A stretch of 34,254 nucleotides of DNA from Nitrospirota bacterium. GTDB taxonomy: Bacteria; Nitrospirota; Thermodesulfovibrionia; Thermodesulfovibrionales; JdFR-85. A program made the position numbers and the translations under genes. Below, piece after piece: positions 285 through 22,036 of the stretch; position 1 is the first letter of the stretch, and each line of letters begins with the position of its first letter. The stretch lies in contig JAADGG010000083.1 in the NCBI GenBank assembly GCA_013152485.1, positions 1-34,254 of the forward strand, read 5' to 3'. The notes under the pieces are model-generated. The model saw only the letters and a list, made by a program, of their open reading frames with translations, did no database searches and was not told the DNA's origin.

Positions 285-311
285 TAAAGTTTTCCGCTGC
301 ATGTCCGATAT
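285..311 (+). promoter_or_regulatory. Sigma28 (FliA) promoter of flagellin
   Basis: The -35 box TAAA (285-288, followed by GTTT) and the -10 box TCCGATAT (304-311) are separated by exactly 15 bases. The known FliA consensus is TAAA-N15-GCCGATAA. Transcription would start near 318, leaving a leader of about 185 bases before the flagellin ATG. Two further copies with the same spacing lie at 17894 and 18162. Confidence 0.88.
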
Positions 312-1404: not shown

Positions 1405-1752
1405 ATGATTGTTAACAACAATAATAATAGGATGGTTTTTCATTTCAGCCAGTCCAGGGACAAGCCCGGAGAAGCCGAAGCCAAGCCCTTGGATGTGAAC
1501 AACAGGGCCAACCCCACCAAACGTGGTGATACTGACGCAGGTAAAACGAAGGTCGGGAATGAAGCGATGGTGGAGAAGTTCATGAACAGGGCGGTCCGCC
1601 TCGAGGTCGAGAAGGATTTGCACAGGGTCATAATCAAGCTTATCGATAAAAAGAGCGGTGAGGTCATACGGCAGATACCTCCTGAAGAGCTTGTAGAACT
1701 TGCCAAGAAGATGAAGGAGAGAGAAGGTATATTCCTTCGCAAGGAGGTTTAG
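1405..1752 (+). CDS. flaG: FlaG family protein
   Basis: Small flagellar protein that influences filament length in several bacteria; its exact function is not settled. The 115-residue product has a polar N-terminal half (many Asn, Lys, Pro) and a typical FlaG C-terminal domain from about residue 55: VEKFMNRAVRLEVEKDLHRV, then IIKLIDKKSGEVIRQIPPEE and a short basic/acidic helix. Position between flagellin and fliD is the classic flaG place. The Shine-Dalgarno of ATG 1405 is weak (ACAGG). Its final codons contain the strong AGGAGG that serves fliD, so the two genes are translationally close (stop 1752, fliD start 1755). Confidence 0.88.
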   Translation: MIVNNNNNRMVFHFSQSRDKPGEAEAKPLDVNNRANPTKRGDTDAGKTKVGNEAMVEKFMNRAVRLEVEKDLHRVIIKLIDKKSGEVIRQIPPEELVELAKKMKEREGIFLRKEV

Positions 1753-3136: not shown

Positions 3137-3550
3137 ATGAAACAGGCTTTGGAGTACAGAAAAACGGAGGTCAATACGTCTGACAATGTCAGAATCGTCT
3201 CTTTGCTGTATGATGGTGCAATCAACTTCATCAAGATAGCACGTACGAGACTCGAAGAAGGAGACATCGCCGGCAAGGGCCTCTTCGTCGGCAAGGCAAC
3301 CGGCGTTGTGGCGGAGCTGTCGAGTTCACTCAACATGGAGGCAGGTGGTGAGATAGCCGGAAACCTCAAGAGGTTGTACGATTACATACTCGACAGGCTG
3401 CTCTATGGAAATATGAACAATGATGCGGTGGCATTTGATGAGGCGGAGAAGGTTCTCGATATTCTCAGGAGCGCATGGAAAGAGATAGAGACGAGAAAGC
3501 CTCATGCTCCGGTACCCGCAGACAATGCCAGGATGGAGCTCAGGGCATGA
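3137..3550 (+). CDS. fliS: Flagellin export chaperone FliS
   Basis: Binds the C-terminal helix of flagellin in the cytoplasm and stops it polymerising before export. The 137-residue four-helix protein carries the FliS hallmarks: a leading YRKTEVNTSDNVRIVSLLYD segment, KATGVVAELSSSLNMEAGGE, and LYDYILDRLLYGN, close to the conserved LYxYMxxRLxxAN motif. A strong AAGGAGG precedes ATG 3137. Its stop overlaps the start of the next gene (ATGA at 3547-3550), indicating translational coupling. Confidence 0.93.
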   Translation: MKQALEYRKTEVNTSDNVRIVSLLYDGAINFIKIARTRLEEGDIAGKGLFVGKATGVVAELSSSLNMEAGGEIAGNLKRLYDYILDRLLYGNMNNDAVAFDEAEKVLDILRSAWKEIETRKPHAPVPADNARMELRA

Positions 3551-3945
3551 ACGCGAAGGTTCTCGATCTCTGCAGGGAGATCCTCGACCTTGCCGAGGCG
3601 CAAAGGGCCGCTGTTTTGAATGCGAGGTTCGATGAAGTTATTCTGCTGCAGGAGAAACGTCAGAGGGTCATGGAAAGGATTCAAAGTTTTGACGGCCCAG
3701 GGTCGGCCTATAGTCATTTTGACGCATCAGCGGAAAAACGTGACCGGGTGAAGGAAGAATTTTCCTGCAGCTTGAACATGACCGTGAGGAAAATCCTCTC
3801 GATCGACAAGGAGATAAAGCAGACACTCCATCAGGAGTTGTTTGACCTGATCGAAAAGATGGAGACCGTCCAGAAACTGAAAAAGGCATTCTGTCACGGT
3901 GTCGCTTCAGGCAAGACGGGAAAGAACCTGAACGTGAACGCCTGA
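3547..3945 (+). CDS. FliT-like flagellar chaperone
   Basis: A 132-residue, almost entirely helical, charged protein starting at ATG 3547 within the ATGA overlap with fliS. The same frame is open further upstream, but that part lies inside fliS and is composition-biased, so I reject the longer start. Position immediately after fliS, size and the helical pattern (LDLCREILDLAEAQRAAVL, EVILLQEKRQRVMERIQ) fit the FliT family, which holds FliD before export and in enterics also binds FlhDC. FliT sequences are poorly conserved, so the assignment rests mainly on context. The C-terminal tail (GKTGKNLNVNA) is polar and probably flexible. Confidence 0.7.
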   Translation: MNAKVLDLCREILDLAEAQRAAVLNARFDEVILLQEKRQRVMERIQSFDGPGSAYSHFDASAEKRDRVKEEFSCSLNMTVRKILSIDKEIKQTLHQELFDLIEKMETVQKLKKAFCHGVASGKTGKNLNVNA

Positions 3946-4174: not shown

Positions 4175-6289
4175 ATGAAAAAGAAGCCTTTTATGCAGGT
4201 TCTTATCGCGTCTTCACCAAAGATGGGAAACAACTGGCTCAGCCTTCTTCTGGCGAGGATGTATCACATCCCTCAGATCACGATTCATCCTGGCACCGAT
4301 CGGGGGAAGCGCTACAGATGGATACTGAACCCCGAGCGTATCGAGATACCACGGGATGGTTTTGTAGGACATGAGCACCTGTATCCCAACGATAGCCTCG
4401 TGAGCCAGCTTGTTGACTCTGGAGTGAACGTGATTACAATGTTGAGGCACCCTGCGGATGCCTTCGTTTCCCTATATCACTATGTAAACAGAGAAACGGA
4501 TTTGCCAGAGATCGAGATAAACGGACTTCTTGCCGGGAAGGATATAAACGACGAGAGCGTCCATCTCTTTCTGGAGAAGTACTTTTATCCCGTCATCATC
4601 GGGCCGAGTTTGCGCTGGTTGGAGTCGGGCGTGGCAATACCGGTCAGGTATGAGGACCTGAAAGTTGACATCAAGAGTACCTTGACCGAACTGACCGAAA
4701 AGCTGGCTCCGGTCCCTGAAGAAAGGATCGATGAAGCGATCGAGTTCTGCAGCATAGAAAACATGAGAACACTGACCAAGGGACTGGAGACGCTCTGCAG
4801 GAAAGGGGCGGTAGGTGAATGGAGGGAGGTTCTGAACGAACGGCACCTGGAGTTGATGAGAAGGTATACAGATGACATAGCGAAGATGGGCTACGGCATC
4901 GACCCTTCTCACAGGATATCCAAACGTAAACAGTACAAGAGCAAGGGGGGGAACATGGCTAAAAAGGTTCTGCTGGTCAATCCGGCACTGGCGTACAGTT
5001 CATGGAGGGCCGATCTTGATAAACCCTCTCCTGACAGTCTGTTCATAAGACTGGGCCTGGCATACATTTCTTCAGCCCTGAAATCACGGGGGCATGAGGT
5101 TTCGCTTGCCGACCTGCGTACACTGTCGGGATGGAGTGAATATGCCGCAATGGTGGAAGAGGTGTCTCCGGACTTTGTAGGAATATCAATTCATTCTGTC
5201 GAGTTTTCCGTTGCTGTAGAGGCTGCCAGGGTGGCCAAGGAGGTTTTGCCGGGAGTGAAGACAGTGGCTGGAGGCGTGCACCCGACCATGTTTCCCCGGG
5301 ACTGTTTGGACGCGGAAGTGTTCGACTATGTCTTGCAAGGCGAGGGAGAAGTCAGCTTTCCCCTGCTGGTAGAGGATCCTTCGCGCTTCCCCAAGGTGTT
5401 CTGGGGAGAGACCTCGGACCTTGATGCCATCCCGTTTCCGGACCGGGAGCTCTGGCCCGACTTCGAAAAAAGGATGTACTCGGAGCCTTTCGGCATCTCC
5501 AGCTTCAAATTTCCCCTGCCGATGGTGGAGATGATCAACGTGAGGGGATGCCCGTACAACTGCTCGTTCTGCTGTGGCCCCGGAGAACATCAGCTTTACA
5601 CGAAACTCAACAGAGCCGGCAAACGCATCCCGTATATCCGCGGCCGAAGCGTCAAGAACGTAATATCGGAGCTTGAGGTGCTGATAGAGCGGTACGGCAT
5701 AAGGTCGGTCATGTTTCACGACGATCAGTTCATAGTTTCCCCTAAATGGGTCTCCGAGTTCGTCGATGAACTTCACAACAGAGGAATAGTCAAATACGGG
5801 CTTAAATGGATCACGTCGAGCAGGGCTGATATTATCTGCAGAAATGACGAACTGCTCGGAAGAATGGCGGAGGCCGGTCTTGCCTTGCTGATCGTCGGCT
5901 TCGAATCTTTCAGCCCGAGGATTCTGAAATGGTTCAACAAGAGGGTTACCGCTGAGCAGAACTTCAAGGCCGCCGAGATATGCCACAAACATGGAATCAA
6001 GTTGTGGGCCAACTATATTCTGGGGATTCCTACAGACACCGGCTGGCATATGGAGGACGACCTGATGACCGTTGAGGGCGTGATCAGGGTCGATCCAGTA
6101 CACTACTCCCCGGCGTTTTATACGCCGGTGCCCGGAAGCGTGCTGTACGATTTCTACAAGAACAACGATCTGATCATAGGTAACGAGGATAACGAGCGCC
6201 TCAGCAACAGGGGGGCCATGGCACCCAAGGTCAAGGGTGTCGACTATGATTTCCTTCAATCCATAATGATAGATGACACCGTTTTGTAA
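4175..6289 (+). CDS. Sulfotransferase / B12-binding radical SAM fusion protein
   Basis: A 704-residue protein with two enzyme modules. Residues 1-260 look like a PAPS-dependent sulfotransferase: SSPKMGNNWL (about 13-22) matches the 5'-phosphosulfate loop, RHPADAFVSLYHY (from R91) the 3'-phosphate motif, and VRYEDL is typical. Residues 261-704 form a cobalamin-binding plus radical SAM enzyme: KVLLVNPA start, DFVGISIHS and GGVHPTMFP in the B12 half, then the Fe-S motif C459-x3-C463-x2-C466 and a TIM-barrel core (SSRADIICRN, IVGFESFSPRIL). Such enzymes methylate or rearrange unreactive carbons. A second start (ATG 4955, residue 261, behind a run of G) could yield the radical SAM half alone. SD GGAGGGAG precedes ATG 4175. 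First gene of the island; probably sulfates and methylates the glycan (inference). Confidence 0.8.
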   Translation: MKKKPFMQVLIASSPKMGNNWLSLLLARMYHIPQITIHPGTDRGKRYRWILNPERIEIPRDGFVGHEHLYPNDSLVSQLVDSGVNVITMLRHPADAFVSLYHYVNRETDLPEIEINGLLAGKDINDESVHLFLEKYFYPVIIGPSLRWLESGVAIPVRYEDLKVDIKSTLTELTEKLAPVPEERIDEAIEFCSIENMRTLTKGLETLCRKGAVGEWREVLNERHLELMRRYTDDIAKMGYGIDPSHRISKRKQYKSKGGNMAKKVLLVNPALAYSSWRADLDKPSPDSLFIRLGLAYISSALKSRGHEVSLADLRTLSGWSEYAAMVEEVSPDFVGISIHSVEFSVAVEAARVAKEVLPGVKTVAGGVHPTMFPRDCLDAEVFDYVLQGEGEVSFPLLVEDPSRFPKVFWGETSDLDAIPFPDRELWPDFEKRMYSEPFGISSFKFPLPMVEMINVRGCPYNCSFCCGPGEHQLYTKLNRAGKRIPYIRGRSVKNVISELEVLIERYGIRSVMFHDDQFIVSPKWVSEFVDELHNRGIVKYGLKWITSSRADIICRNDELLGRMAEAGLALLIVGFESFSPRILKWFNKRVTAEQNFKAAEICHKHGIKLWANYILGIPTDTGWHMEDDLMTVEGVIRVDPVHYSPAFYTPVPGSVLYDFYKNNDLIIGNEDNERLSNRGAMAPKVKGVDYDFLQSIMIDDTVL
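4955..4957 (+). promoter_or_regulatory. Possible internal start codon for the radical SAM half
   Basis: ATG 4955 is in frame with the 4175 gene and is preceded by AAGGGGGGG (4944-4951), a purine-rich ribosome-binding candidate four bases away. The protein from here begins MAKKVLLVNPAL, a natural-looking N-terminus for a B12 radical SAM enzyme. The locus may therefore make a full fusion and a separate 444-residue enzyme. Confidence 0.45.
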
Positions 6290-6355
6290 TGAAGGATGCA
6301 GGAAACGGGCATGATATACAATGTGTGATAACAGTCAACCTGGAGGACCTTGTCT

Positions 6356-8686
6356 ATGAACTCGGGGATCAATGAGCTCTACATGTCTCGCGACAGGCAT
6401 TATGAGCTGAAGGAAGTCAAAGCAAAGGCTATAGATCTGGACAATCGGAACTCTGTCCATGCACGTATAGTGGACAGTATAGCGACTGACAGTATTGTGC
6501 TGGATGTCGGCTGCTCCTACGGATACCTGGGGGAGTGGCTTGTGAAGAACAGACAGTGCAAGGTTTACGGGATCGAGATCGACGAGATCGCCATCGACAA
6601 GGTGAGGTCCGAGGCATTCTACAATGACGTCTTCGCTGTGGACCTCGATTTCTTCGAGCGCAACGCGAGGGAGTTCAAACGGTTCTGTGATCTGGACATA
6701 CAGTTCGACTATATAATATGCGCCGATGTCCTCGAGCACCTGAAGGACCCGACCACCGCTCTCGTGACGTTACTGGATAAGCTGAAAGAGTCGGGGAAGG
6801 TCCTGGTGAGTATTCCTAATGTCGCAAACATAGATGTAACCTTGAACATCATAGAGGGCAAGTTCAACTATTCTCGAGTCGGCATACTCGACAGTACACA
6901 CCTGAGATTCTTCACCCGGACGTCTTTTTCAGAGTGGGTGCAATCGATAAACTCTAACCTTCTCAAAGACCATAGGTTGGAGGCCGAGCTGATCGGGTCG
7001 ACTGAGACGATGTCTGAGTTCGCTGCATATGTAAAATCCACATATCCGAATACATACAACCTCCTGGCCGAGGCGATCGGAGAAGATGCCACGGTGCTGC
7101 AGTATGTGTTTCTGCTTACAAAAAAGAAACGCGGTGCCGCTGAGGAGGCGGATGATGTGCTCTCAGGGCCTGATTCCGGACACATCAAGCGGATAGAGGA
7201 ACGGTTACATGAGCTGCACTGGTCGCTGGAGTGTGCCGGCCGTATTTTCAAGAAAAAACATGAAGCGAACTCGAAACACATGAGAAAACTCCTGTCTACG
7301 GAGAGGAGGGTTGCCAGCCTCGAGAGTCAGTTGAGCAAGAAAGAGGCCGTGCTCGCTGAACTGCTGAAACACTCCTATCGTATTACGCCGATGGATATCA
7401 GAAATCGTCCTCCCGCGATAAAAGAGAGGATATCCGTCATTGTTCCGGTCAAGAACGGTGGAGAACAGTTGAGGACGCTTCTTGAAAAGATCAGGTCTCA
7501 GAGAAGAGTCGAGGACGTTGAGATCATCGTTATCGACTCGGAATCAACGGATGATTCCGTATCAATAGCCAGGGCGTTCAAATCCAAGGTGATCAGCATT
7601 CCACAGAGTGAATTCAATCACGGAGCGACCCGTAATCTCGGAGCTGCAGAAGCAAGCGGTGAGTTCCTCGTCTTTACCGTCCAGGATGCGGTACCCATCA
7701 ACAGTTACTGGCTTTACAACATGATATGTCCTTTTATTGAAATTCCCGAGCTGGCGGCATTGACGTCGAAGCAGTTTGTGAACCCGGAGGCCGACCTCTT
7801 CAGTCTCTGGATGTCTGAAAGTCTGGCAGATGTGCTGGACTTCAAGAAGGATTCAATATACTCTCTCACGGATACCTTCGACTGTTTCGATTGGAAACTC
7901 CTCGATAGTCGGACCAAACGGCGGGTGACGTTCTTCGATAACGTCTCCTCGTGTGTCAGAAGACGTGTATTGAACGAATTTCAATTCAGCCCGATCATAA
8001 ATGCAGAGGATATCGATTTCGGAGTCAAGCTCTTAAGCAACAAGAAAACCCTGGGGTACCTAACCTCGACGGGTGTTCTGCACTGGCATGAAAGAGGTCC
8101 AGAGTATGTGTTCAAACGGTACTACGTGGGGACCAAGGCCAGCATATATATTCTGAACAACGACCTGTCGTACTTTTTCGACTCGAATAACATTACGTGG
8201 GAAGCCCTGCTGGCAAATATTACAGACACTTATGATCTGATCAATGCATCTATGCCGCCCCTGTCAGAGATCCAAGGTCAGCCCGTCAAGGCCATAAGGG
8301 CCTTTGTGAACGCCCTTCAGCGGAATATCGATCGTCCCGGAAGGTTTGCGTCCAAGGCCCGCGGTGACGAAGGTCTGGATATGCTGATTGCGGAGATAAA
8401 AGGGGACGGTGTAACGGCGTCAGAACCTGAACATGACTTCTCCAGGAGTTTCCTCATCCACGATTTCATGAAGGAGTTCCAGAGATTCACGGACTACCTT
8501 TGTCGTAACCATAATACGCTGGATGGACGCGAGGAAGACTTTGTTTCTTGTATCTACAAGATATTCGCAACTACGGCGGGAGAGGCGGTGGGGGCGTATT
8601 TTCTTGAAGCTGAAACCCTGAACCGTCTCACGCCGGACCTCAAGAGAATAGACCGGATGCTCGGGAAAGGAGTCTGTTATTTCTAG
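6356..8686 (+). CDS. Methyltransferase-coiled coil-GT2 glycosyltransferase fusion
   Basis: A 776-residue protein. Residues about 35-255 are a class I SAM methyltransferase (LDVGCSYGYLGEWL motif I; ADVLEHLKDP; SIPNVANIDVTLN; GILDSTHLRFFT). Residues about 280-345 are charged heptads, likely a coiled-coil spacer. From about 356 a GT2 family glycosyltransferase follows: ISVIVPVKNGGEQL, EIIVIDSESTDDS, FNHGATRNLGAAEASGEF and VFTVQDA, a pattern close to rhamnosyltransferase-like enzymes. The last 150 residues are helical and unrecognised. ATG 6356 is chosen over TTG 6350 because GGAGG (6342-6346) is nine bases before it. The methyltransferase is a clear paralogue of the one in the 10374 gene. Probably transfers and O-methylates a sugar of the flagellar glycan. 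Confidence 0.82.
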   Translation: MNSGINELYMSRDRHYELKEVKAKAIDLDNRNSVHARIVDSIATDSIVLDVGCSYGYLGEWLVKNRQCKVYGIEIDEIAIDKVRSEAFYNDVFAVDLDFFERNAREFKRFCDLDIQFDYIICADVLEHLKDPTTALVTLLDKLKESGKVLVSIPNVANIDVTLNIIEGKFNYSRVGILDSTHLRFFTRTSFSEWVQSINSNLLKDHRLEAELIGSTETMSEFAAYVKSTYPNTYNLLAEAIGEDATVLQYVFLLTKKKRGAAEEADDVLSGPDSGHIKRIEERLHELHWSLECAGRIFKKKHEANSKHMRKLLSTERRVASLESQLSKKEAVLAELLKHSYRITPMDIRNRPPAIKERISVIVPVKNGGEQLRTLLEKIRSQRRVEDVEIIVIDSESTDDSVSIARAFKSKVISIPQSEFNHGATRNLGAAEASGEFLVFTVQDAVPINSYWLYNMICPFIEIPELAALTSKQFVNPEADLFSLWMSESLADVLDFKKDSIYSLTDTFDCFDWKLLDSRTKRRVTFFDNVSSCVRRRVLNEFQFSPIINAEDIDFGVKLLSNKKTLGYLTSTGVLHWHERGPEYVFKRYYVGTKASIYILNNDLSYFFDSNNITWEALLANITDTYDLINASMPPLSEIQGQPVKAIRAFVNALQRNIDRPGRFASKARGDEGLDMLIAEIKGDGVTASEPEHDFSRSFLIHDFMKEFQRFTDYLCRNHNTLDGREEDFVSCIYKIFATTAGEAVGAYFLEAETLNRLTPDLKRIDRMLGKGVCYF

Positions 8687-8696
8687 GAAACTTGTA

Positions 8697-10355
8697 TTGG
8701 CTGAGACAAGAAGGGGTAATTTTTCAATGAAGGTGAGCTGTGATGACGGCTCCGTCAAAACCCTGCACAGCCTTTATGACCCTGAAGCAGAGGCCAGAAG
8801 CATCGTAGATGCCGTCGGCTTCGATGGAAGGGGGTTGCTCGTCGTAGTCGGCCTTGGGCTCGGTTACCACCTCAGGGAGATCGTGCAGCGGTTTCCTGCC
8901 GCGGATATCGTCGTGGTCGAGGCTGTGCCAGAGGTCTACGAGCTCGCAGAGAGCCAAGGAATGATCTCGGATCTTGAGGGAAGGGTCGAGTTCTTGATCG
9001 GTCTCCCCGTGAAAGAGGCTATCGGCGAGATTTTCAGCCGGCAGATGAAGCTGGGCATGGTGCCCTTGTCGGTTTGTGCCCTGTCTTCTGCTGTGTCTGC
9101 TTTCCGTGACTACTATACGCCCGTGCTCGATTCGTTGAGAAGTTCGATAAACGTGAGATTGTGGGACAGGTTGAGATATGCAAAGTTCAGGGGAGAGACT
9201 TGCAGTGTCCTGTTGATCGACAGCGGCTACTTCCTGACACGCGAAACAGAGAATGCGTTGCTGCAACTCGGACACAGGGTCATGAAAGTGCCGGTAAGCA
9301 AGAGAGAGAGAGGCGAGGTTGTCGTGTCGAGGCTTATCAAGGGCATCTGCGACTTCAAGCCTGACTTCATCCTCACCATAAATCATCTGGGGCTTGACGA
9401 AGACGGGACCATGACATCCTTCTTGAAGTCGATAGAGATGCCGCTGGCGTCGTGGTATGTCGACAGTCCCAATCTCATAGTGCGGGCTTTCGAGGGGAAT
9501 GTGTCGCCCTACGTCTCTCTGTTCCTGTGGGACAGGGGATATATGAAGGACATGCGGTCCTTGGGTTTCGAGTCGGTTTCATACCTTCCGCTCGCCGCCG
9601 ACGACACGGTATTCACGCCTTTAGCGGGCGGGGGAAGAAACGGTCACTATGAATGTGATGTCTCTTTCGTGGGGAATTCCATGGTGGTCCCGGCCATGGA
9701 GAGCCTGGAGAAGGTTCCCGTCAGGCTCCGCTCACTTGTTGAGGAGGCGGCGGTGATTCTGAGTTCGGCGAGGATCTCTTTCGACGAGGCGCTGACAACT
9801 CTGGAAAGGGACGCTCTGTCCATGATCGATTCACTGTCGGCTCGGGAGAGACTGGATTTCGAGGCGGCCGCCATCTGGAGGGCAACATTGCTTTACAGGC
9901 TTTCGTGTGTCAAGGCGCTCAGGGAGTTTCATCCCCGCATACATGGAGACGAGGCATGGAAGGGGCTTCTGGATGATAACTACACGGTTGGTCCTTCTTT
10001 GAACTATTATGATGAACTGCCGAAACTTTACATCGGCAGCAGGATCAACTTCAATGCCACGAGTCTCCAGATGACCGGCGCTGTCAACCAGAGAGTATTC
10101 GATGTTCCAGCTTGTGGAGCATTCCTGTTGACCGACCACCAGGAGTCCATCGAAGAACTGTTTGAGGTGGGTAAGGAGGTTATTACTTACAAGGAACGGG
10201 ACGAGATACCGGAACTGGCAGGTTTTTATCTCAATAATCCGGGGGAGAGAGAGAAGATAGCCCGTATGGGTAGAGAGCGTATCCTCAAGGAACATACTTA
10301 CAGGCACAGGCTGGCTGCAATCGTTCAGAGCATGAAGAACCGTTATGGATATTGA
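8697..10355 (+). CDS. MAF-like / CgeB-like glycosyltransferase (paralogue 1)
   Basis: A 552-residue protein. The N-terminal 150 residues carry TLHSLYDPEAEA and VVGLGLGYHLREI, patterns I know from the motility-associated factor (Maf) glycosyltransferase family. From about 165 the protein looks like a CgeB/DUF3880-type glycosyltransferase: WYVDSPNL, SLFLWDRGYMKDM, YLPLAADDTVF, CDVSFVGNS, then NQRVFDVPACGAFLLTD and a C-terminal EHTYRHR helix. Starts are uncertain: TTG 8697 (AGGA nine bases upstream) or ATG 8727 (behind AAGGGG); the conserved part begins near residue 20 either way. Lies 10 bases after the previous gene. Its closest relative in the window is the 13871 gene. Probable role: adding sugars to flagellin or its glycan. 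Confidence 0.78.
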   Translation: MAETRRGNFSMKVSCDDGSVKTLHSLYDPEAEARSIVDAVGFDGRGLLVVVGLGLGYHLREIVQRFPAADIVVVEAVPEVYELAESQGMISDLEGRVEFLIGLPVKEAIGEIFSRQMKLGMVPLSVCALSSAVSAFRDYYTPVLDSLRSSINVRLWDRLRYAKFRGETCSVLLIDSGYFLTRETENALLQLGHRVMKVPVSKRERGEVVVSRLIKGICDFKPDFILTINHLGLDEDGTMTSFLKSIEMPLASWYVDSPNLIVRAFEGNVSPYVSLFLWDRGYMKDMRSLGFESVSYLPLAADDTVFTPLAGGGRNGHYECDVSFVGNSMVVPAMESLEKVPVRLRSLVEEAAVILSSARISFDEALTTLERDALSMIDSLSARERLDFEAAAIWRATLLYRLSCVKALREFHPRIHGDEAWKGLLDDNYTVGPSLNYYDELPKLYIGSRINFNATSLQMTGAVNQRVFDVPACGAFLLTDHQESIEELFEVGKEVITYKERDEIPELAGFYLNNPGEREKIARMGRERILKEHTYRHRLAAIVQSMKNRYGY

Positions 10356-10373
10356 CAACGCAGGAGCAAAAGG

Positions 10374-13300
10374 ATGAGAACCAGGATACTGACATTCAAC
10401 TGGCATGAATCCTATATACACATGCTTGCCAAGACAGGCTGCAGCTTCGATGTCGTTGAGAAATGGAAGGGAGGCCGGTTCGGCTGGATAAGAGAGTTCC
10501 GCCCCGTCCCCGACAACTGCCGCCTTATATCCGAAGAAGAGGCATCCTACGGCCTGAGGTCGGGCGTATACGACTTGATCATTGCCCACAACATCAATGA
10601 TCTCGTCACCGTGAACGACTGCTCGGTTCCCAAGATACTGGTCTTCCACAATAAACTTTCCACCGAGATAGCCCTTGGCGGCTATGCCGTAAACAGGGAG
10701 GAATATCTCGAAAGCGTCCGCCGGCTTGTCGGGTCTGCCAAGGATCTGACGCTGGTCTTTATATCGGAGGCGAAGATGCAGGACTGGGGAATGACCGGAG
10801 AGGTTATACCCCCCGGCATAGACATAACCGAGTACGGCGGCTGGAGAGGAGATGTAGCCAAGGTGCTTAGAATCGGCAACTTCTTGATGGAGCGGGACAT
10901 AATGCTTGGCTACTCTGTACAAGAGAGGCTTCTGAAAGGCCTGTCCTCGACGATACTCGGCCTCAATCCACATATAGCCGACGCATATGTGCCGAAGGGT
11001 TGGGAGGAACTGAAGGACTTCATGCGCTCTCACAGGGTCTACCTGAATACCACGATGCATCCTTACGAGGATGGCTATAATCTCGCCATGCTCGAGGCGA
11101 TGGCTGTGGGGAGTCCCGTAGTGTCACTTGCAAATCCTTCCTCTCCCGTTGAAGACGGCGTCAACGGCTACATATCTTCAGACGAGGATTATCTGAGAGA
11201 CAGGGCTGCCGAGCTGCTGCACGATGCAGCACTTGCCGGGACTCTGGGACAGAGGGCCCGTGAAACCGTCATGGACAGGTTTCCGGCAGAGAGGTTCCTT
11301 AGAGACTGGAAAAGGATTATCGGTGTCCCTTGCCGTTCATCGATTCAGATGGTGGATGAGTGCACGCTTGGCAAGTCATCGGGTAACTGTGCAAGGAGAC
11401 TTAAGGTGTTGTTGAGCTATACCTCCAATCCTCAGACAACCGCCTTCTATATTGAAAAGGCCTTGCGCAGAAATCATGATGTGATAACCTATGGGCCGGC
11501 CATAGAAGACGAGATCATAAGGGAGTGGAAACTGGAGCAGGTAAGGGACCGGGTAACGGAGCACGACATTCCTTACTTTACTCCCGACCTTGACAAGGTT
11601 CTTGCGAGCCTGCCTCCGGGATGGGTTCCGGACCTGTTCCTCTGGGTGGAGAGCGGGGTGTCGTTTTCTCTCTTTGGCACGAGAAACCTCCCGTGTCTTT
11701 CAGCATGTTACCTCATCGACACCCACCTCAACCTCGAAAAGCACCTTGAGATCGCAAGGGACTACGATATTGTATTCCTGGCACAGAGAGAATATGTGGC
11801 AAGCTTTGAGAGGGCCGGTTTCGAACGGGTTTACTGGCTTCCTCTGGCATGTGATCCGGATATTCACCGGAAGAGAAATCTTGAAAAGATTTACGATGTC
11901 GGTTTCGTGGGAAGCCTGAACCAGCAAAGACGTGTCGATCTGTTGAATGCGATTGGAAAGCACGTCGGTCTCTACTATGAGAGATGCTTTCTGGAAAGAA
12001 TGGCCGAGGTCTACTCTCGATCAAGGATCGTATTCAATAACGCAGTCAATAATGATCTCAACATGAGGGTTTTCGAAGTGCTCTGCTCGGGAAGCCTGCT
12101 GCTTACCGATGAAGCCGACGGGAGCGGTCTGACCGATCTCTTCAAGGACAGAAAGCACCTTGTCATATATCACGATAAGGATGAGCTCGTCGAACTCGTG
12201 AAGTATTACCTGGATAATGATGATGAACGAGAGAAGATTGCGGCAGAGGGCATGAAAGAGGTTCTGCAAAAGCATACCTATGATCACAGGGTGGCCCAAA
12301 TGGTAAGAATAGTTACCCCCCTGTTGGACGGGGATATAGACAGGGAGTCCGGGAAGATATGGGATAGTCATCCCGAGGCGCTTGTGCTGCAGCCGTATTG
12401 TGTAGGGAAGGGTATCGATGTAGGTTCCGGCTTCAGAAAGACGCATCCTGACGCCATAGGCATAGACATAATTCCCAAAGGCGAAATCGGAGAACATGGA
12501 TGCATGCATGGCATGCGCTCGGTTGCCGATGTAGCGGCGTCAGGCGATGACCTGTACATGTTTGGAGACGGTGAACTCGACTATGTCGTAAACAGGCACA
12601 ACCTTGAACACTATGTGGATGTCGTCAAGACCCTGCTCGAATGGAAGCGCGTGCTTAAGGTTGGAGGAGTATTGGGCATGGTGCTTCCCGACGAATCAAA
12701 GATCGATACCATATCGCTTGATCCAACACACAAACACTGCTTCACTCCGGAAAGCATCACGCGCTTGTTGGATCTGATAGGCGGATTTGAGATCGAGAGA
12801 ATTGAACCAGTGGTGGAGAACTGGTCCTTTATGGTCGTTGCAAGAAAAGTCAGTGATAAGGGTGAGAACATGAAACAAACATCGGTGTCAGTTGATGCCA
12901 GAGCTGAAGGAAAGACCAGGAAACCGGTTGAGGGTGCTGTCCCCGGAGACTACTACAGCAGGGAACGGAGAGACGTTGAGATCCTCGTGCCGCATGATGT
13001 GAAGAGGGTTCTGGATGTGGGCTGCGGAGAAGGCGTTCTCGGCAAACGGCTGCTGGACAGAGGCGCAAGCGAGGTGATAGGGGTGGAGATTTCGGAGGAA
13101 GCTTGCAGGAAAGCCGCAAGAAATCTTACGGGGGTCGTATGTGGAGATATAGAAGATATAGCCCTGTCTTTCGAGGATGGATACTTCGACTGCATAGTCT
13201 TGGCCGATGTGCTGGAACATCTCGTAGACCCCATGTCGACGCTGAAGAAGCTCGGAAAGTATCTCTCCGACGCCGGAAGCATTGTGGCGAGCATTCCCAA

Positions 13301-13874
13301 CGTCAGATACTACGGGGTCATCAACATGCTCGTCGAAGGCAGGTGGAGATACGACGACTACGGTATTCTTGACAGGACTCACCTCAGGTTCTTCACCAAG
13401 AAAGAGATCTACCTGCTCTTCGAGAAAGCGGGGTTCGAGATAACGGGGATAACCGCCAACATCGATCCCGAATACAATTCCTTGGGTTACGGTTTTTCAG
13501 GGAACGTGTCTTTTGGTAGGACCTCTCTGAGAGACCTCAGCCCCGAAGAAGTCAAGGATCTCTTTGTCGTTCAATATATCTTGAAGGCAGAGAAGGCGGG
13601 AAGCGAGCTTAGGAGATTGAACGACGGTGTCAACAGCGCGATGGAAGCAGGGGATCATGACACGGCTGTGAAAGCGTATGAGGAATACCTTGCACTGCAT
13701 CCTGCAGACACCGATACCCTTGTCAGGTATGCAGAGTTATGCTACAGAACCGGCATGCTGGACAAGGCCCTCGAAAGTCTCGACAGGATTCTTCTGTTCG
13801 AGCCGGAGCGTGAGGACGCCATTGAACTTAGAAGGGCTGTGGAGAAGCCCTTCGTAGACGGGAGTCGATCATGA
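10374..13874 (+). CDS. Giant GT4 / CgeB-like GT / two methyltransferases / TPR protein
   Basis: A 1166-residue fusion with five recognisable parts. About 1-320: GT4 glycosyltransferase with the E-x7-E type motif in EDGYNLAMLEAMAVGSPVVS. About 344-645: CgeB-like glycosyltransferase (YLIDTHLNLEKH, WLPLACDPDIHRK, VGFVGSLNQQ, RVFEVLCSGSLLLTD, KHTYDHR). About 670-830: type 11 methyltransferase (GIDVGSGFRKTHPDAIGIDI, NRHNLEHY). About 875-1075: second methyltransferase (VLDVGCGEGVLGKRLL, ADVLEHLVDP, GILDRTHLRFFTKKE). About 1085-1160: two TPR-like units. ATG 12870 (residue 833) with GGTGAG nearby could start the second methyltransferase-TPR half separately. The stop overlaps the next start (ATGA at 13871). 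Such a chain suggests sequential sugar transfer and methylation on one scaffold. Confidence 0.8.
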   Translation: MRTRILTFNWHESYIHMLAKTGCSFDVVEKWKGGRFGWIREFRPVPDNCRLISEEEASYGLRSGVYDLIIAHNINDLVTVNDCSVPKILVFHNKLSTEIALGGYAVNREEYLESVRRLVGSAKDLTLVFISEAKMQDWGMTGEVIPPGIDITEYGGWRGDVAKVLRIGNFLMERDIMLGYSVQERLLKGLSSTILGLNPHIADAYVPKGWEELKDFMRSHRVYLNTTMHPYEDGYNLAMLEAMAVGSPVVSLANPSSPVEDGVNGYISSDEDYLRDRAAELLHDAALAGTLGQRARETVMDRFPAERFLRDWKRIIGVPCRSSIQMVDECTLGKSSGNCARRLKVLLSYTSNPQTTAFYIEKALRRNHDVITYGPAIEDEIIREWKLEQVRDRVTEHDIPYFTPDLDKVLASLPPGWVPDLFLWVESGVSFSLFGTRNLPCLSACYLIDTHLNLEKHLEIARDYDIVFLAQREYVASFERAGFERVYWLPLACDPDIHRKRNLEKIYDVGFVGSLNQQRRVDLLNAIGKHVGLYYERCFLERMAEVYSRSRIVFNNAVNNDLNMRVFEVLCSGSLLLTDEADGSGLTDLFKDRKHLVIYHDKDELVELVKYYLDNDDEREKIAAEGMKEVLQKHTYDHRVAQMVRIVTPLLDGDIDRESGKIWDSHPEALVLQPYCVGKGIDVGSGFRKTHPDAIGIDIIPKGEIGEHGCMHGMRSVADVAASGDDLYMFGDGELDYVVNRHNLEHYVDVVKTLLEWKRVLKVGGVLGMVLPDESKIDTISLDPTHKHCFTPESITRLLDLIGGFEIERIEPVVENWSFMVVARKVSDKGENMKQTSVSVDARAEGKTRKPVEGAVPGDYYSRERRDVEILVPHDVKRVLDVGCGEGVLGKRLLDRGASEVIGVEISEEACRKAARNLTGVVCGDIEDIALSFEDGYFDCIVLADVLEHLVDPMSTLKKLGKYLSDAGSIVASIPNVRYYGVINMLVEGRWRYDDYGILDRTHLRFFTKKEIYLLFEKAGFEITGITANIDPEYNSLGYGFSGNVSFGRTSLRDLSPEEVKDLFVVQYILKAEKAGSELRRLNDGVNSAMEAGDHDTAVKAYEEYLALHPADTDTLVRYAELCYRTGMLDKALESLDRILLFEPEREDAIELRRAVEKPFVDGSRS

Positions 13875-15661
13875 TGTTTGAAGACAACATAGGACTTCTC
13901 AGAAGTACGGATCCGGAACTTGCAAGCCTTCTTTCAGCAAGTGGCAGGCGGGAAGGCCTGCAAGAACTCTCAAGCAGAGAAGGCCTGCCCAGTATTCGAG
14001 CCGGCAGCATTACTCTTCACAGTCTGTATGATCCCCTGAAGGAAGCCGAGTCCTGGATTGAACATTACCGTGAGAGAGTCGACGGGGCCCCCGAAATCTG
14101 TGTGCTCGGGTTCGGACTCGGATATCATGTGCTCGAGCTCTGCAGATCCACGACGGCCGACATCGTAGTCTTTGAGCCAGACATGGGCATACTGAAGGCG
14201 GCTTTCGAGCTTATGGATCTCGCGTCTGTCATTCCCAGGGTCAGGTTCGTCACCGGGACCGAGCTTCCACGGCTGAAGAAGGGGTTTGTCGTGCTGGAAC
14301 ACATTCCGTCGGTGACCTTGAATCCCGAATATTTCAAGAGGATGCGCTACATGCTGTCTGTTCTCGGAAGCATCAGGAGGGGGCTGAAGATCATGGTCGT
14401 CGGCCCCATATACGGAGGTTCTCTCCCTGTTGCAGGCTATTGTGCCAAGGCCCTCGAAAATCTCGGGCACGAAGTCGAATTTGTGGACAACAGCAGGTAT
14501 AAGGATATTTTCCTGTCTATAGACAGGATAACCGATAACAAGGCGCATCAGGGACAGTTGAAAGAGATGTTCGTACACTTTGTCTCGGAGTCGGTGGTTG
14601 CAAGGTGTGGCGAGTTCAAACCGGACCTGGTCTTTGCCTTGGCACAGGCTCCGTTAACCGGCGACTCGCTGCAGAAATTGAGAGATATCAAGGTTCCTAC
14701 CGCCTTCTGGTTCATCGAGGACTTCAGGCTGATGAATTACTGGCAGAGGATCGCGCCTTTTTACGACTATTTCTTCACGATACAGAAGGGGGAGTTCTTC
14801 GAGCGCCTGAGGCAGATGGGCTTAAGGAACTTCTACTATCTGCCCCTTGCGGCCTCCGTTGACACACACAGGAAGGCGACTATCACTGAAGACGAGATGA
14901 AGACATACGGAAGCGACATCTCGTTCGTCGGTGCAGGATACCACAACAGGAGAAAGCTCTTTGAAGGATTGGTGGATTTTGACTTCAAGATATGGGGCAA
15001 CGAATGGGACCTCGGTTCGACACTTGGAAGATTTATCCAGCGTTCGGGTGACAGGATAGGAACGGAAGAGATTGTCAAGATATTCAATGCAACGAAAATC
15101 AATATCAATCTCCACTCGTCGACATACCATAACGGAGTCAATCCCTACGGAGATTTTGTTAATCCAAGGACTTTCGAGATAGCAGCCTGTGAAGGGTTTC
15201 AGCTCGTGGATTACCGTTCGGAGATGCTGGCACTGTTCAAGGTCGGTGAAGAACTGGTCTGTTTTGAGGACCTGAACGATCTGAGGCACAAGATCCGGTA
15301 TTATCTTCACGATCCTGACAAACGCATGGAGATAGCACGTAAGGGGAACGCCCGTGTCAGGAAGGATCATACGTATGAGCTGAGGATGGAAGAGATGCTG
15401 GACCTCGTCCTATCGAGTGGTTACGAGCTTCCCCCGTGGCATGCCGAAGGAGAGATGGTGGATACGCTTGTCGGTGCCGCCGGCGCAGATACCACACTCG
15501 GAAGATACCTGGCAAGGTTCTCCGAGAAGGGCAGTCTCGGTCTTGACGACATAGTGGAAGAGATAAGGAGAGGAGACGGTACGCTTTCAGACATTGAGAA
15601 GATATTTCTGTTCATGGATTCGATAAAGCAACAGTATACTGACAGGGCAAAGGTCTGCTGA
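13871..15661 (+). CDS. MAF-like / CgeB-like glycosyltransferase (paralogue 2)
   Basis: A 596-residue paralogue of the 8697 product. The N-terminal part has TLHSLYDPLKEAESW and VLGFGLGYHVLEL (Maf-family pattern), shifted by an extra 40-residue leader. From about 175 a CgeB-like glycosyltransferase follows: VVGPIYGGSLPVAGY, KVPTAFWFIEDFRLM, FTIQKGEFFERL, YLPLAASVDTHRK, DISFVGAGYHNRRKL, NPRTFEIAACEGFQLVDY and KDHTYELRM. The C-terminal 85 residues are acidic and helical. ATG 13871 overlaps the upstream stop (ATGA), so translation is coupled. The extra leader and different spacing argue for old duplication followed by divergence. Expected to act in the cytoplasm before flagellin export, like known Maf enzymes (inference). 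Confidence 0.78.
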   Translation: MMFEDNIGLLRSTDPELASLLSASGRREGLQELSSREGLPSIRAGSITLHSLYDPLKEAESWIEHYRERVDGAPEICVLGFGLGYHVLELCRSTTADIVVFEPDMGILKAAFELMDLASVIPRVRFVTGTELPRLKKGFVVLEHIPSVTLNPEYFKRMRYMLSVLGSIRRGLKIMVVGPIYGGSLPVAGYCAKALENLGHEVEFVDNSRYKDIFLSIDRITDNKAHQGQLKEMFVHFVSESVVARCGEFKPDLVFALAQAPLTGDSLQKLRDIKVPTAFWFIEDFRLMNYWQRIAPFYDYFFTIQKGEFFERLRQMGLRNFYYLPLAASVDTHRKATITEDEMKTYGSDISFVGAGYHNRRKLFEGLVDFDFKIWGNEWDLGSTLGRFIQRSGDRIGTEEIVKIFNATKININLHSSTYHNGVNPYGDFVNPRTFEIAACEGFQLVDYRSEMLALFKVGEELVCFEDLNDLRHKIRYYLHDPDKRMEIARKGNARVRKDHTYELRMEEMLDLVLSSGYELPPWHAEGEMVDTLVGAAGADTTLGRYLARFSEKGSLGLDDIVEEIRRGDGTLSDIEKIFLFMDSIKQQYTDRAKVC

Positions 15662-15666
15662 ACACC

Positions 15667-17403
15667 ATGAAAGAGATCCTTATAGTCAATCTGACCAGAA
15701 TGGGCGATCTTGTCCAGACCACTCCGGTGATAAGGGGTCTGAAGGAGAAGTATCCCGGTGTAAGGATAACGCTTCTTGTAAACGCGGCCTTTTCAGAGAT
15801 TTGCCGGTACATACCCGACACGGACAGGGTCTTTGCACTCGATATCGACAGGATAATTCGCGGGCTGAACGGCGGCGGACTGGTAGAGGCGTTTCGATAT
15901 GTCGAGGAGAGCATCGGAGCGATAAACGACGGCATGTATGACCTTGTCATAAACTTCACACACTCCAACATGAGTGCGGTCTTGACATCCCTTTTCAACA
16001 CGAGGGAGACAAGGGGCCTCAGTATGAACGATGAAGGGTTTACCATCAAGAGGCATCCATGGATCAGGTGCTTTTTCAATGTTATTCCCGGCAGAGGCTA
16101 TAATCCGTTTCATCTGTGTGACATGTACCTGAAGGCCGCAGGTTTGACCCCCGGCCGACAAGGCCTCCATCTTGACATGCCCGATGATGTCGATCAGAGG
16201 ATTTGCTCTCTGTTCAAAGGAAGAGGGATCAGTGATGGTGATACAGTCGTGGGCCTTCAGCTTGGAGCAAGCGCGGAGGACAAGAGATGGCCTATAGCCT
16301 CGTTTGTTGCGCTGGCCGACAGGTTGGTTGAATCCTTCGGGGTGAAGGTTGTTCTGACAGGCTCGGTCAAGGAGGCCGACTTCGGAAGGAGCTTTGAGTC
16401 CCTTGCAAGGGCAAAGCCGCTGAACCTGATCGGACGGACCGACCTGAGTGATCTTGTTGCCGTGCTGCGGCGTTGCAATCTCTTCATCAGCAACGATACG
16501 GGGCCCCTTCACATTGCCACAGCCGTAGGTACGAAGACGGTGAATATCTCTCTGGGGTCGGTCCACTTCAGGGAGACGGGACCTTATGGTGACGGTCATT
16601 ACGTGATAAAGGCCGAGATACCGTGCAGTCCTTGTGACTTCTACACTGACTGCACCGACACGGTCTGCAAACGTACCGTTAGCGTGAACAGTGTCTTCGA
16701 GCTCTCGAGCAGGTTGTTGATGGATGAAGACGTGTCATCCATGGATGATTCCCCGGTATGGCGTGATGTTCAGGTCTACAAATCGTACTTCGATGCAGAC
16801 GGGCTCATCGAGTATCTCCCCTTGGTCAGGAGACGTCCTTTGAACAAGGAGATCCTTTTTACCGCCGTATACAAGCGGACGTGGCTGAATGTCCTCGACT
16901 CCGGGGACAAGCGCAGTCCCGAAAGTATTTGCGATATGGTGTCGGAGCATATACATGCGAGCTATGACACGGACTCTTTAGATTTACGGGCTCTGGTCGA
17001 AGACGAGCTTGCCGTATTGAAAAGACTGGAAGACCTCGCCAGGAATGCCTACTCCATAATATCCATAATCGAGAGGGAAGCCAGGAAGGCTTCTCCTGAT
17101 ATAGACTTGATCAAGAAGATATGGACTGGCGTACCTCATATCGACCAGGAGATCGAAACCGCCGGTTACACATGCCCTGCCTTGAGACCCCTGACCAATA
17201 TATTCAAGTACGAGAAGGAAGAACTCGAGGAGAAAGAGATAGTTGTCCTGTCAGAAAAGGCCTGTAAAATCTATAATGATCTCGGCCTCCATGTCTCCAT
17301 GATGATAGCCGTACTCGAGTCACTACTGCAGCGTTTCCCAGGGCAACGTGTTAGTTCGGGAGATTATATCAATTCAATGCCGATGCTTCAGGACACGGAT
17401 TAA
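15667..17403 (+). CDS. Heptosyltransferase-like GT9 with unknown C-terminal tail
   Basis: A 578-residue protein. Residues 1-345 match ADP-heptose:LPS heptosyltransferase (GT9): ILIVNLTRMGDLVQTTPVIR at the start, LQLGASAEDKRWP, VVLTGSVKEADFG, and FISNDTGPLHIATAVGTKTV, all diagnostic. A Cys-rich patch follows (CSPCDFYTDCTDTVCKR). Residues about 350-578 are predicted helical and match nothing I recognise. Standard family members end near residue 350, so this tail is extra. The gene starts five bases after the previous stop. In this context it may add a heptose-like sugar to the flagellar glycan rather than LPS. gmhA, which makes the heptose precursor, is 9 kb downstream (26303). Confidence 0.84.
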   Translation: MKEILIVNLTRMGDLVQTTPVIRGLKEKYPGVRITLLVNAAFSEICRYIPDTDRVFALDIDRIIRGLNGGGLVEAFRYVEESIGAINDGMYDLVINFTHSNMSAVLTSLFNTRETRGLSMNDEGFTIKRHPWIRCFFNVIPGRGYNPFHLCDMYLKAAGLTPGRQGLHLDMPDDVDQRICSLFKGRGISDGDTVVGLQLGASAEDKRWPIASFVALADRLVESFGVKVVLTGSVKEADFGRSFESLARAKPLNLIGRTDLSDLVAVLRRCNLFISNDTGPLHIATAVGTKTVNISLGSVHFRETGPYGDGHYVIKAEIPCSPCDFYTDCTDTVCKRTVSVNSVFELSSRLLMDEDVSSMDDSPVWRDVQVYKSYFDADGLIEYLPLVRRRPLNKEILFTAVYKRTWLNVLDSGDKRSPESICDMVSEHIHASYDTDSLDLRALVEDELAVLKRLEDLARNAYSIISIIEREARKASPDIDLIKKIWTGVPHIDQEIETAGYTCPALRPLTNIFKYEKEELEEKEIVVLSEKACKIYNDLGLHVSMMIAVLESLLQRFPGQRVSSGDYINSMPMLQDTD

Positions 17404-17412
17404 CTGAAAATA

Positions 17413-17434
17413 TCTGAGCCGAACCCGACTCAGA
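17413..17434 (+). other. Small inverted repeat before the 143-aa gene
   Basis: TCTGAG (17413-17418) and CTCAGA (17429-17434) form a six-base stem with a ten-base loop in the 49-base gap. Four bases or so later comes AAGGAG for the next gene. It may tune translation, but it is short and could be chance. Confidence 0.25.
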
Positions 17435-17452
17435 CGAAAGAAGGAGAGAAAC

Positions 17453-17884
17453 ATGCAAAACAGTGAAGTGAAAAGAGATATCGAGCTTGTAGGTGCGATA
17501 CAGAAGGGTATTGCAGAGACCGACGGAGTTGTAACCGAGATAGGGGAGAAGCTGCTCGACTGTGTCAACCTGCTAAGGACGGAGCAGTCGGATGACGTTT
17601 TCATGGCATTGTCGGAAGGGATAAAGAACCTCGACTACTTGATGGAGTTCGTGCGGGAGGTCAGAAAGGGCGTAGAGCATCTGAGGCTCAGAGGATACGA
17701 TATATCCATGGAACCTTTTGCCTGCTGGGATGACTCTCTCGATATCTTCAAGGAGATGCTGTCGGCATTTGAGTCGAAAGACTGGGTAACCCTCTCGGAC
17801 CTCATACAGTATGAGCTTCCTCAAATTCTTGGAGAGGGCAGGCAGGGACTGTCTGCGATAAGAGACAGGCTCATGGAGCTTTGA
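17453..17884 (+). CDS. Small helical protein of unknown function
   Basis: I do not recognise this 143-residue protein. It is acidic and almost wholly helical, with no signal peptide, membrane segment or Cys motif. Visible features are a polar N-terminal helix, IKNLDYLMEFVREVRKGVEH in the middle, a short WDDSLDIFKEMLSAFESKDW segment and a final helix. It resembles a helical-bundle adaptor more than an enzyme. It has a good AAGGAG before ATG 17453 and is the last gene of the island, 49 bases after the GT9 gene, whose unknown tail is also helical. A partner or chaperone role for the glycosylation enzymes is possible but unproven. Confidence 0.72.
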   Translation: MQNSEVKRDIELVGAIQKGIAETDGVVTEIGEKLLDCVNLLRTEQSDDVFMALSEGIKNLDYLMEFVREVRKGVEHLRLRGYDISMEPFACWDDSLDIFKEMLSAFESKDWVTLSDLIQYELPQILGEGRQGLSAIRDRLMEL

Positions 17885-17893
17885 ACTTTTCAT

Positions 17894-17920
17894 TAAAGTT
17901 TTCCGAAAAACGTCCGATAT
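17894..17920 (+). promoter_or_regulatory. Sigma28 promoter, upstream copy
   Basis: TAAA (17894-17897, followed by GTTTT) and TCCGATAT (17913-17920) with a 15-base spacer. It lies 10 bases after the stop of the 143-aa gene and 350 bases before the next gene, with a second sigma28 promoter in between. Its transcript would begin near 17927 and include the inverted-repeat element. Confidence 0.82.
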
Positions 17921-18161: not shown

Positions 18162-18188
18162 TAAAGTTCTCTGAAGAAAGGCCGATAT
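18162..18188 (+). promoter_or_regulatory. Sigma28 promoter of the motility-control operon
   Basis: TAAA (18162-18165) and GCCGATAT (18181-18188) with a 15-base spacer; the -10 is the best of the three copies. Transcription would start near 18195, about 50 bases before the 74-aa gene, and would carry the regulators and motAB. Confidence 0.86.
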
Positions 18189-18247: not shown

Positions 18248-18472
18248 ATGACGATACTGCCGTCGCAGATTAATGACATGCTCAGGCTTTACTCGAAGTT
18301 TTCAGGCACGAACTCCCACCTGCCCGAAGATCCGTTCCCTGCAGTTGAAGAACCTCAGGACGTTGTGGAGATATCCACGGAGGCAAAGAAAAGGCAGATT
18401 CAGGACGAGACAAGGATGGAGGTCATGAAAAAGATAAAGGAGACGGGCATAGTTGGAAAAGAAAGACTTTAA
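18248..18472 (+). CDS. Small conserved-looking flagellar-regulon protein
   Basis: A 74-residue soluble protein and first gene behind the sigma28 promoter. ATG 18248 is preferred over GTG 18242 and ATG 18245, because GGGAGG ends five bases before it. The N-terminus (LPSQINDMLRLYSKF) is a helix, the middle is Pro-rich and acidic, and the C-terminal half (DVVEISTEAKKRQIQDETR) is a charged helix. The DxVxISxEAK pattern is reminiscent of FlgM-type anti-sigma28 factors, but the C-terminal sigma-binding helices of FlgM are not clear. I would not call it FlgM. Its 3' end overlaps the response regulator start (TTG 18453) by 20 bases, so both are probably co-translated. Confidence 0.65.
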   Translation: MTILPSQINDMLRLYSKFSGTNSHLPEDPFPAVEEPQDVVEISTEAKKRQIQDETRMEVMKKIKETGIVGKERL

Positions 18473-19055
18473 GATTCTCATCATAGACGATGATGAAATA
18501 GCGAGAGATGTAGTAGTCAGCCTGCTTTCCAAGGAAGGTTTCACTGTCTGTTCCGCCCGTGACGGTCTCGAGGGTATCAGGGCTCTGAAGCTCGATGTAT
18601 ACAGCCTGATCATCACGGACCTCAGGATGCCCGGGGCAGGCGGGTTTGAAGTGCTGAAGGCGGCCCGCGATTTCAACCCTAAGGCCGCCGTCGTCATACT
18701 GACGGCGTACGGAACGCTGGACAACGCCATCGAAGCCATAAAGTTCGGAGCATATGACTATATCACGAAACCTTTCAAGCTCCAGGAGATCATTATTGTG
18801 GTCGAGAATGCCATGAAGAGGGCCGAACTCATGGAGGAGAACGAAGAGCTCAGGCTCCATCTGCGCAATACATACAGGGATCTCGAGATGATGAACTCGG
18901 TGAGGAGGCATGCAACACCGGAATTGACGATGAACTTTCTCGAACGGCTTGCTCGGTTGAGGCAGATGGACATAATCAGCGAGTCTGATGTGGAGATTTT
19001 GAAGGATAGATTGCTTTTGGGAGCTGTAAATGCCACGGGTACTGATAGTAGATGA
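18453..19055 (+). CDS. Response regulator with receiver domain and helical tail
   Basis: A 200-residue protein with a canonical receiver at 1-125: acidic pocket LIIDDDE, phospho-acceptor D56 in IITDLRMP, switch residue in VILTAYGT and Lys in YITKPF. The remaining 75 residues form a coiled coil (RAELMEENEELRLHLRN) and a short helical end; there is no DNA-binding or enzymatic domain. It would signal by protein contact. The start is TTG 18453 with AAAGGAG about ten bases upstream; no ATG suits the receiver fold. It overlaps both the upstream gene and the following HD-GYP gene (26 bases). The histidine kinase at 22859 is a plausible partner. Confidence 0.86.
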   Translation: MEKKDFKILIIDDDEIARDVVVSLLSKEGFTVCSARDGLEGIRALKLDVYSLIITDLRMPGAGGFEVLKAARDFNPKAAVVILTAYGTLDNAIEAIKFGAYDYITKPFKLQEIIIVVENAMKRAELMEENEELRLHLRNTYRDLEMMNSVRRHATPELTMNFLERLARLRQMDIISESDVEILKDRLLLGAVNATGTDSR

Positions 19056-21271: not shown

Positions 21272-21274
21272 TGT

Positions 21275-22030: not shown

Positions 22031-22036
22031 CATGTC

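Follow-up and report, generated by a model that had tools for sequence, protein, structure and literature searches.

A row of seven mostly multi-domain genes for glycan assembly, placed directly behind a flagellin gene cluster, raises the question of which acceptor it serves and what it makes there. The row lies in the window, by which we mean the whole 34,254-nucleotide stretch of DNA that was analysed, contig C8 of a Nitrospirota assembly of 2.06 Mb and 91.5% completeness. An initial annotation had seen in it a possibly undescribed flagellar glycan system, built by fused assembly-line enzymes and marked by sulfate and methyl groups. Judged by gene order, by its occurrence together with flagellin, by its mutual exclusion with canonical Maf and by the sigma-54-like site conserved at its head, the island reads, with a probability that we put at roughly 0.8, as a flagellin glycosylation locus related to the Maf type, in which a CgeB module would take the place of the Maf catalytic domain. 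The flagellar part of the earlier proposal is well supported by synteny and co-occurrence, its sulfated, C-methylated part much less so.

Composition of the locus

Seven plus-strand open reading frames (P1 to P7, 4175-17884) follow immediately 3′ of fliC-flaG-fliD-fliS-fliT (Table 1). They were recovered as initially annotated, and Pfam agrees with the domains that had been listed for them. The central residues 141-195 of FliC hold 17 Ser/Thr. The fliT frame overlaps the end of fliS, with a true start probably at about 3547, and P2 probably starts at ATG 6356 rather than TTG 6350. The response regulator-PilZ-motAB flank on the far side of the island is kept in relatives. A recent foreign island was ruled out, since the GC content of the island equals that of its surroundings.

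P6 found its best matches among heptosyltransferase models and folds, and P7 is conserved in several families, where it holds the same position. Neither P7 nor the C-terminal domain of P6 gave any indication of a FliS-like chaperone in profile-profile comparison, nor did such comparison relate P7 to the P6 C terminus. Elsewhere in the window, a SIS-domain protein (GmhA/DiaA-like, 26303-26893) is a possible heptose-precursor enzyme near this GT9-bearing locus, and a radical SAM protein with DUF3463 (HpnH-like, hopanoid synthesis) is encoded on the minus strand at 31578-32609.

Table 1. Features of the flagellar region and glycan island, in window coordinates
Feature	Position	Strand	Evidence
Sigma-28-like promoter 5′ of fliC	285..311	+	14/16 positions match the consensus; shuffles predict 0 sites with this score
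fliC, short flagellin of 280 aa, putative acceptor of the glycan	503..1345	+	Flagellin_N/C
flaG	1405..1752	+	PF03646
fliD, filament cap	1755..3119	+	FliD_N/C
fliS, flagellin chaperone	3137..3550	+	PF02561
fliT	3475..3945	+	FliT 9e-6, slightly under cut-off
Sigma-54-like promoter TGGCAAGATATTTGCT, between fliT and P1	4053..4068	+	1 mismatch
P1: PAPS sulfotransferase (aa 1-255) + B12-binding radical SAM (aa 261-704)	4175..6289	+	Pfam
P1 internal junction AAGGGGGGGAACATG / AAGGGGGGGAACATGGCTAAA, G7 tract	4943..4963	+	Likely ribosome-binding site + radical SAM start codon
P2: SAM methyltransferase + GT2	6350..8686	+	Pfam
P3: Maf-type N-domain + CgeB-type glycosyltransferase	8697..10355	+	Pfam, profile-profile comparison
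P4: GT4 + CgeB + methyltransferase a + methyltransferase b + TPR	10374..13874	+	Pfam
P5: Maf-type N-domain + CgeB-type GT-B; core protein	13871..15661	+	Pfam, profile-profile comparison, structure model
P6: GT9 heptosyltransferase-like + helical C-terminal domain	15667..17403	+	GT9 Pfam 2.1e-27
P7: conserved protein, last island gene	17453..17884	+	No Pfam or NCBIfam match
Sigma-28-like promoter 3′ of island	17894..17920	+	Score never reached in shuffles; also in G006
Second sigma-28-like promoter 3′ of island	18162..18188	+	Score never reached in shuffles; also in G006
Right flank: response regulator, HD-GYP, PilZ, motA, motB	18453..22720	+	Pfam for HD-GYP to motB

P3 and P5 join a Maf-type N-domain to a CgeB-type glycosyltransferase

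Two MAF-like N-domains had been recognized in the initial annotation. The two miss the Pfam cut-off (PF20157), with E values of 1.8e-4 and 4.9e-4, but the N-domains of P3 and P5 were borne out by profile-profile comparison with the canonical Maf N-domains of the same phylum, which gave a probability of 99.7 and E = 2e-26 over 160 columns for P5, and a probability of 98.2 and E = 2.8e-14 for P3. Both proteins continue into a CgeB-type glycosyltransferase (P3, PF13524 at 6e-34, with DUF3880; P5, 1.6e-36), and the CgeB-type pair PF13524 and PF12996, the catalytic module of P3, P4 and P5, exceeds the cut-off in all three. By Pfam, the PF01973 catalytic domain was absent from P3 and P5, and none was found in 17 genomes of the window's family. 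No NCBIfam model covers P3 or P5, so that neither takes a specific name from that source. The structure model of P5 matched GT-B enzymes with low-to-moderate confidence from a shallow alignment, the models being built on 3-4 sequences with pLDDT of 68-69.

On sequence and model comparison, P5 resembles a Maf protein that has exchanged its catalytic domain for a CgeB-type GT-B domain, a reading that draws on its Maf-homologous N-domain, its place near fliC and its exclusion of strong Maf matches. Canonical Maf (Maf_flag10_N plus PF01973) shares with P5 the homologous N-domain and a gene beside fliC, and the two are phyletically interchangeable within the phylum; P5 differs in having the CgeB-type GT-B domain instead of PF01973. 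Compared with other CgeB-type glycosyltransferases (PF13524, PF12996), P3 and P5 add the Maf N-domain and a tie to flagellin. This hybrid, tied to short flagellins, is the most distinctive feature of the locus and was missing from the initial annotation.

Distribution and association with flagellin genes

Full-length P5 was found in 130 of 396 Nitrospirota genomes belonging to many families, in one of the 130 in two pieces. Flagellin (Flagellin_N match) is present in 129 of these genomes, and the exception may reflect an assembly gap; among the 155 genomes that lack flagellin, a single one has P5 (Fisher 6e-35, with no correction for relatedness). As the genomes are related, independent gains and losses are fewer than these counts. 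The gene order near fliC-fliD-fliS, for which a search of other genomes had been proposed, recurs: P5 and fliC share a contig in 62 of the 72 genomes with listed coordinates, at most 35 kb apart in 60 of the 62 and at most 15 kb apart in 54. In the loci that were read out, P6 follows P5, and the pair mostly has either fliC/fliD/fliS or the response regulator-PilZ-motAB flank as its neighbour. Whereas P5 and P6 are kept across families, the other glycosyltransferases vary.

Strong PF01973 matches, by which canonical Maf was judged present or absent, were detected in 20 genomes of the phylum, none of which has P5; weaker matches occur in three P5 genomes. Canonical Maf lies 1.3-6.4 kb from fliC in the 14 P5-lacking genomes with coordinates, a place that in other genomes is taken by P5.

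A second phylum, Nitrospinota, from which a Nitrospinaceae hit had come, was also compared, and P5 was matched there at E <= 1e-30 in 43 of 77 genomes, two of the matches covering the CgeB part only and a few lying in two pieces in draft genomes. Ten loci (L002, L003, L117-L124) carry P4-P5-P6 as a conserved trio away from flagellar genes, in L002 and L003 near PGK and RNase E/G genes. The two trio-bearing genomes that were checked encode many short flagellins each. Homologous islands beside LPS or capsule genes had been named at the outset as evidence against a flagellar role; the neighbours found are flagellar in Nitrospirota and, where they could be identified, housekeeping genes in Nitrospinota.

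P5 accompanies short flagellins

Flagellin length was compared across the 149 genomes in which an open frame could be read (72 P5-positive and 77 P5-negative), open-frame length being the true length or slightly above it. All 72 P5-positive flagellins are short (open frames of 276-341 aa), and 48 of the 77 P5-negative ones reach at least 480 aa; canonical Maf goes with flagellins of 611-802 aa. Within the five families that contain both P5 states, 51 of 51 P5-positive flagellins are short (stratified permutation p <= 5e-6, with relatedness partly controlled). The window's own genus has both states, with a flagellin of 281 aa in G006, which has P5, and of 522 aa in G004, which does not. Flagellins of at most 345 aa also occur in 15 of the 77 P5-negative genomes, so P5 is not required for a short flagellin.

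Promoter-like sites

A sigma-54-like site with at most one mismatch is present in the gap corresponding to that between fliT and P1 in all five relatives compared (G006, G001, G048, G033 and G015), so that, with the window, all six genomes have it at the head of the island although the first gene differs. In the window by itself, sites of this type occur no more often than chance would predict; it is their conservation that counts as evidence. Sigma-28-like sites of the same kind precede fliC in G006, G001 and G015, and those at 17894 and 18162 precede the operon behind the island. The conserved sigma-54-like site together with the recurrent sigma-28-like sites indicates that the island has its own conserved start within the flagellar region. 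A sigma-70 promoter was sought before P1, and none was found.

Enzyme fusions and the variable island interior

The view of the island as fused assembly-line enzymes holds for P4 and is unproven for P1. The GT4-CgeB-methyltransferase(-TPR) fusion of P4 is kept in other families and in Nitrospinota, with the layout GT4-CgeB-MTa-MTb-TPR in the window, GT4-CgeB-MTb-TPR in G240 and G158, GT4-MTb-TPR in G006 and others elsewhere. This conservation across families and phyla shows that P4-type fusions are real, and rules out stop-codon reassignment or a frameshift behind them. Only the P1 fusion stays doubtful, because its junction resembles the ribosome-binding site of a following gene and relatives carry the radical SAM half alone, as a stand-alone gene (G240, G058, G022 and G001). 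With one extra G at the junction, the sulfotransferase would be 262 aa long and its end would overlap the start of the following gene; as judged from these sequences, the fusion could have arisen recently or could result from a mistake in assembly.

Among relatives, the island interior is reshuffled between conserved flanks. A methyltransferase-TPR protein comes first in G006 and a sulfotransferase-TPR protein in G048, and an aminotransferase-sulfotransferase is among the early genes of G015. P5 bears extra N-terminal glycosyltransferase domains in some genomes (GT17 in G001; GT4 in G012 and G016). Full-length P2 homologues were found in G240 (L078) and in an alternate copy of the locus in G001 (L096). 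The latter, a short contig (G001:C5:1-4592), holds the end of fliT, a sulfotransferase remnant, the radical SAM gene, P2 and P3, and G001 carries a different island on C94 besides. L096 is either a second copy of the locus or another strain in the bin, and suggests that the flagellar glycan locus exists in different alleles.

The sulfotransferase and radical SAM halves of P1

Pfam assigned P1 to the sulfotransferase (PF00685; 2.5e-13), B12-binding (2.9e-19) and radical SAM (9.5e-19) families, and its nearest solved sequences are a plant sulfotransferase, StaL and radical SAM enzymes. By inspection, the sulfotransferase motifs SSPKMGNNW, RHPADAFVSLYHY and RKGAVGEW are recognizable. The genome encodes an APS kinase, which makes a supply of PAPS plausible, so that the N-terminal half has both the family match and the donor supply expected of a PAPS-dependent sulfotransferase. 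This sulfotransferase occurs in 1 of the 396 phylum genomes and as one pseudogene remnant in G001; the islands of G015 and G048 have different sulfotransferase domains.

The C-terminal half combines a B12-binding domain with a CxxxCxxC radical SAM core (C459-C463-C466 in the alignment). It matched none of the NCBIfam methylase equivalogs over cut-off, all being far below, and its sub-cut-off NCBIfam matches point variously to the chemistry of oxidative cyclases, methylases and diol dehydratases. C-methylation by this half would be a guess from sequence. Sulfate plus methyl as the defining chemistry, the core of the initial annotation, is not upheld by a sulfotransferase near-unique to the window and by radical SAM models that are mixed.

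Alternative explanations

An island that makes LPS core or O-antigen, capsule or another surface polysaccharide, with flagellar neighbours by chance or co-regulation, would suit the heptosyltransferase-like P6 and the Nitrospinota trio away from flagellar genes; CgeB-type glycosyltransferases may, moreover, serve other acceptors elsewhere. It would not suit the single P5 case among flagellin-negative genomes, the way P5 tracks flagellin length within families, its mutual exclusion with canonical Maf or the sigma-54-like site between fliT and the island, and the annotated neighbours include no LPS transport or ligase gene. Co-occurrence and synteny lead us to reject this explanation as very improbable.

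Flagellin could also be glycosylated with P3 and P5 as ordinary chain-extending enzymes whose substrate is a carrier or the glycan itself; their Maf-like N-domain would then be no more than a docking element or a degenerate methyltransferase fold, and another enzyme would make the first protein-sugar bond. We consider this rather unlikely: the Maf N-domain has weak methyltransferase similarity and no proven function (PMC11339370), and the island offers several further glycosyltransferases, but it is P5 and P6 that persist from family to family, those others being variable, and P5 substitutes for Maf phyletically. Doubtful, too, is the version first annotated, in which a sulfated, C-methylated flagellin glycan is the window-specific hallmark of the system. 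The recognizable motifs, the APS kinase with its plausible PAPS and the different sulfotransferases of G015 and G048 speak for it; the rarity of the present sulfotransferase (one genome and one remnant) speaks against it, as does a radical SAM reaction that cannot be told from its models. Sulfate and C-methyl are possibly local decorations and not a hallmark of the system.

Proposed mechanism and relation to known systems

For the flagellin glycosylation locus favoured here, we infer the following enzymatic steps, linkage, order and products. FliC would be positioned by the Maf-type N-domain of P5 (and of P3) while still in the cytoplasm, ahead of its FliS-dependent export; the Maf protein of Aeromonas interacts directly with flagellin, at a step that precedes the chaperone (PMC4065374). 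The fused CgeB-type GT-B module, standing in for the nonulosonate-transferring domain of canonical Maf, would attach or extend an O-glycan on Ser/Thr of a short FliC surface loop. P6 (GT9) and the fused glycosyltransferase/methyltransferase proteins P4 and P2 may then lengthen and O-methylate the chain, and the variable first genes, here the sulfotransferase and B12 radical SAM enzyme, would decorate it. The glycan probably supplies part of the filament surface that D2/D3 domains give in long flagellins. More tentatively, and at somewhat less than even odds, the Maf-N/CgeB hybrids may form an undescribed class of flagellin O-glycosyltransferases in two phyla, having replaced Maf along with the loss of D2/D3, with a modular glycan made by fused enzymes as the filament surface, here capped with sulfate and methyl.

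The Geobacillus (PMC5109656) and Aeromonas (PMC7874193) islands likewise combine glycosyltransferases with modifying enzymes, are variable and lie beside flagellar genes, and methyltransferases are common in those of Geobacillus (PMC5109656). The window's island differs in its large multi-domain fusions, Maf-N/CgeB hybrids, conserved sigma-54 site and sulfotransferase modules. Known loci had initially been described as using separate small enzymes or one Maf/FGT, which is not strictly right: the type B GT2 of Clostridioides difficile appears to be a glycosyltransferase-methyltransferase fusion (PMC5207246). Flagellin glycans that are sulfonated and O-methylated have already been described from C. 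difficile, although made there by different chemistry (PMC5207245). That type B locus resembles ours in an O-methylated, sulfur-bearing flagellin glycan and a glycosyltransferase joined to a methyltransferase domain; it differs in its taurine-derived sulfonate in a peptidylamido cap and its GT2-type enzymes, and the available portions of the two papers report no Maf-N, CgeB or PAPS sulfotransferase (PMC5207245, PMC5207246). Its GT2-led set with taurine-cap genes (PMC5207246) is not matched by the gene content of the window. In the open-licence literature, nothing relevant was found on sulfated flagellin or on flagellin glycosylation in Nitrospira or Nitrospirota, and nothing of substance linking CgeB to flagellin, the single match being a vaccine review.

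If the proposed enzyme class is real, a large part of the flagellated Nitrospirota, Nitrospira nitrifiers probably among them, and of the Nitrospinota would use enzymes absent from the literature found, and long Maf-modified versus short GT-B-glycan flagellins would form a natural experiment on flagellar glycan function. The reshuffled, modular island may also yield glycosyltransferase-methyltransferase-sulfotransferase fusions usable in glycan engineering. In probable Nitrospira loci (L068-L071, L073, L075-L077), open reading frames of 1422-2176 aa with GT2 and other domains lie upstream of P5-P6 by fliC. In a Geobacter metagenome-assembled genome (L005:11493-17087), a protein 42% like the CgeB part of P4 is encoded two genes before a flagellin-like open reading frame, an arrangement that hints that a third phylum has a locus of this kind.
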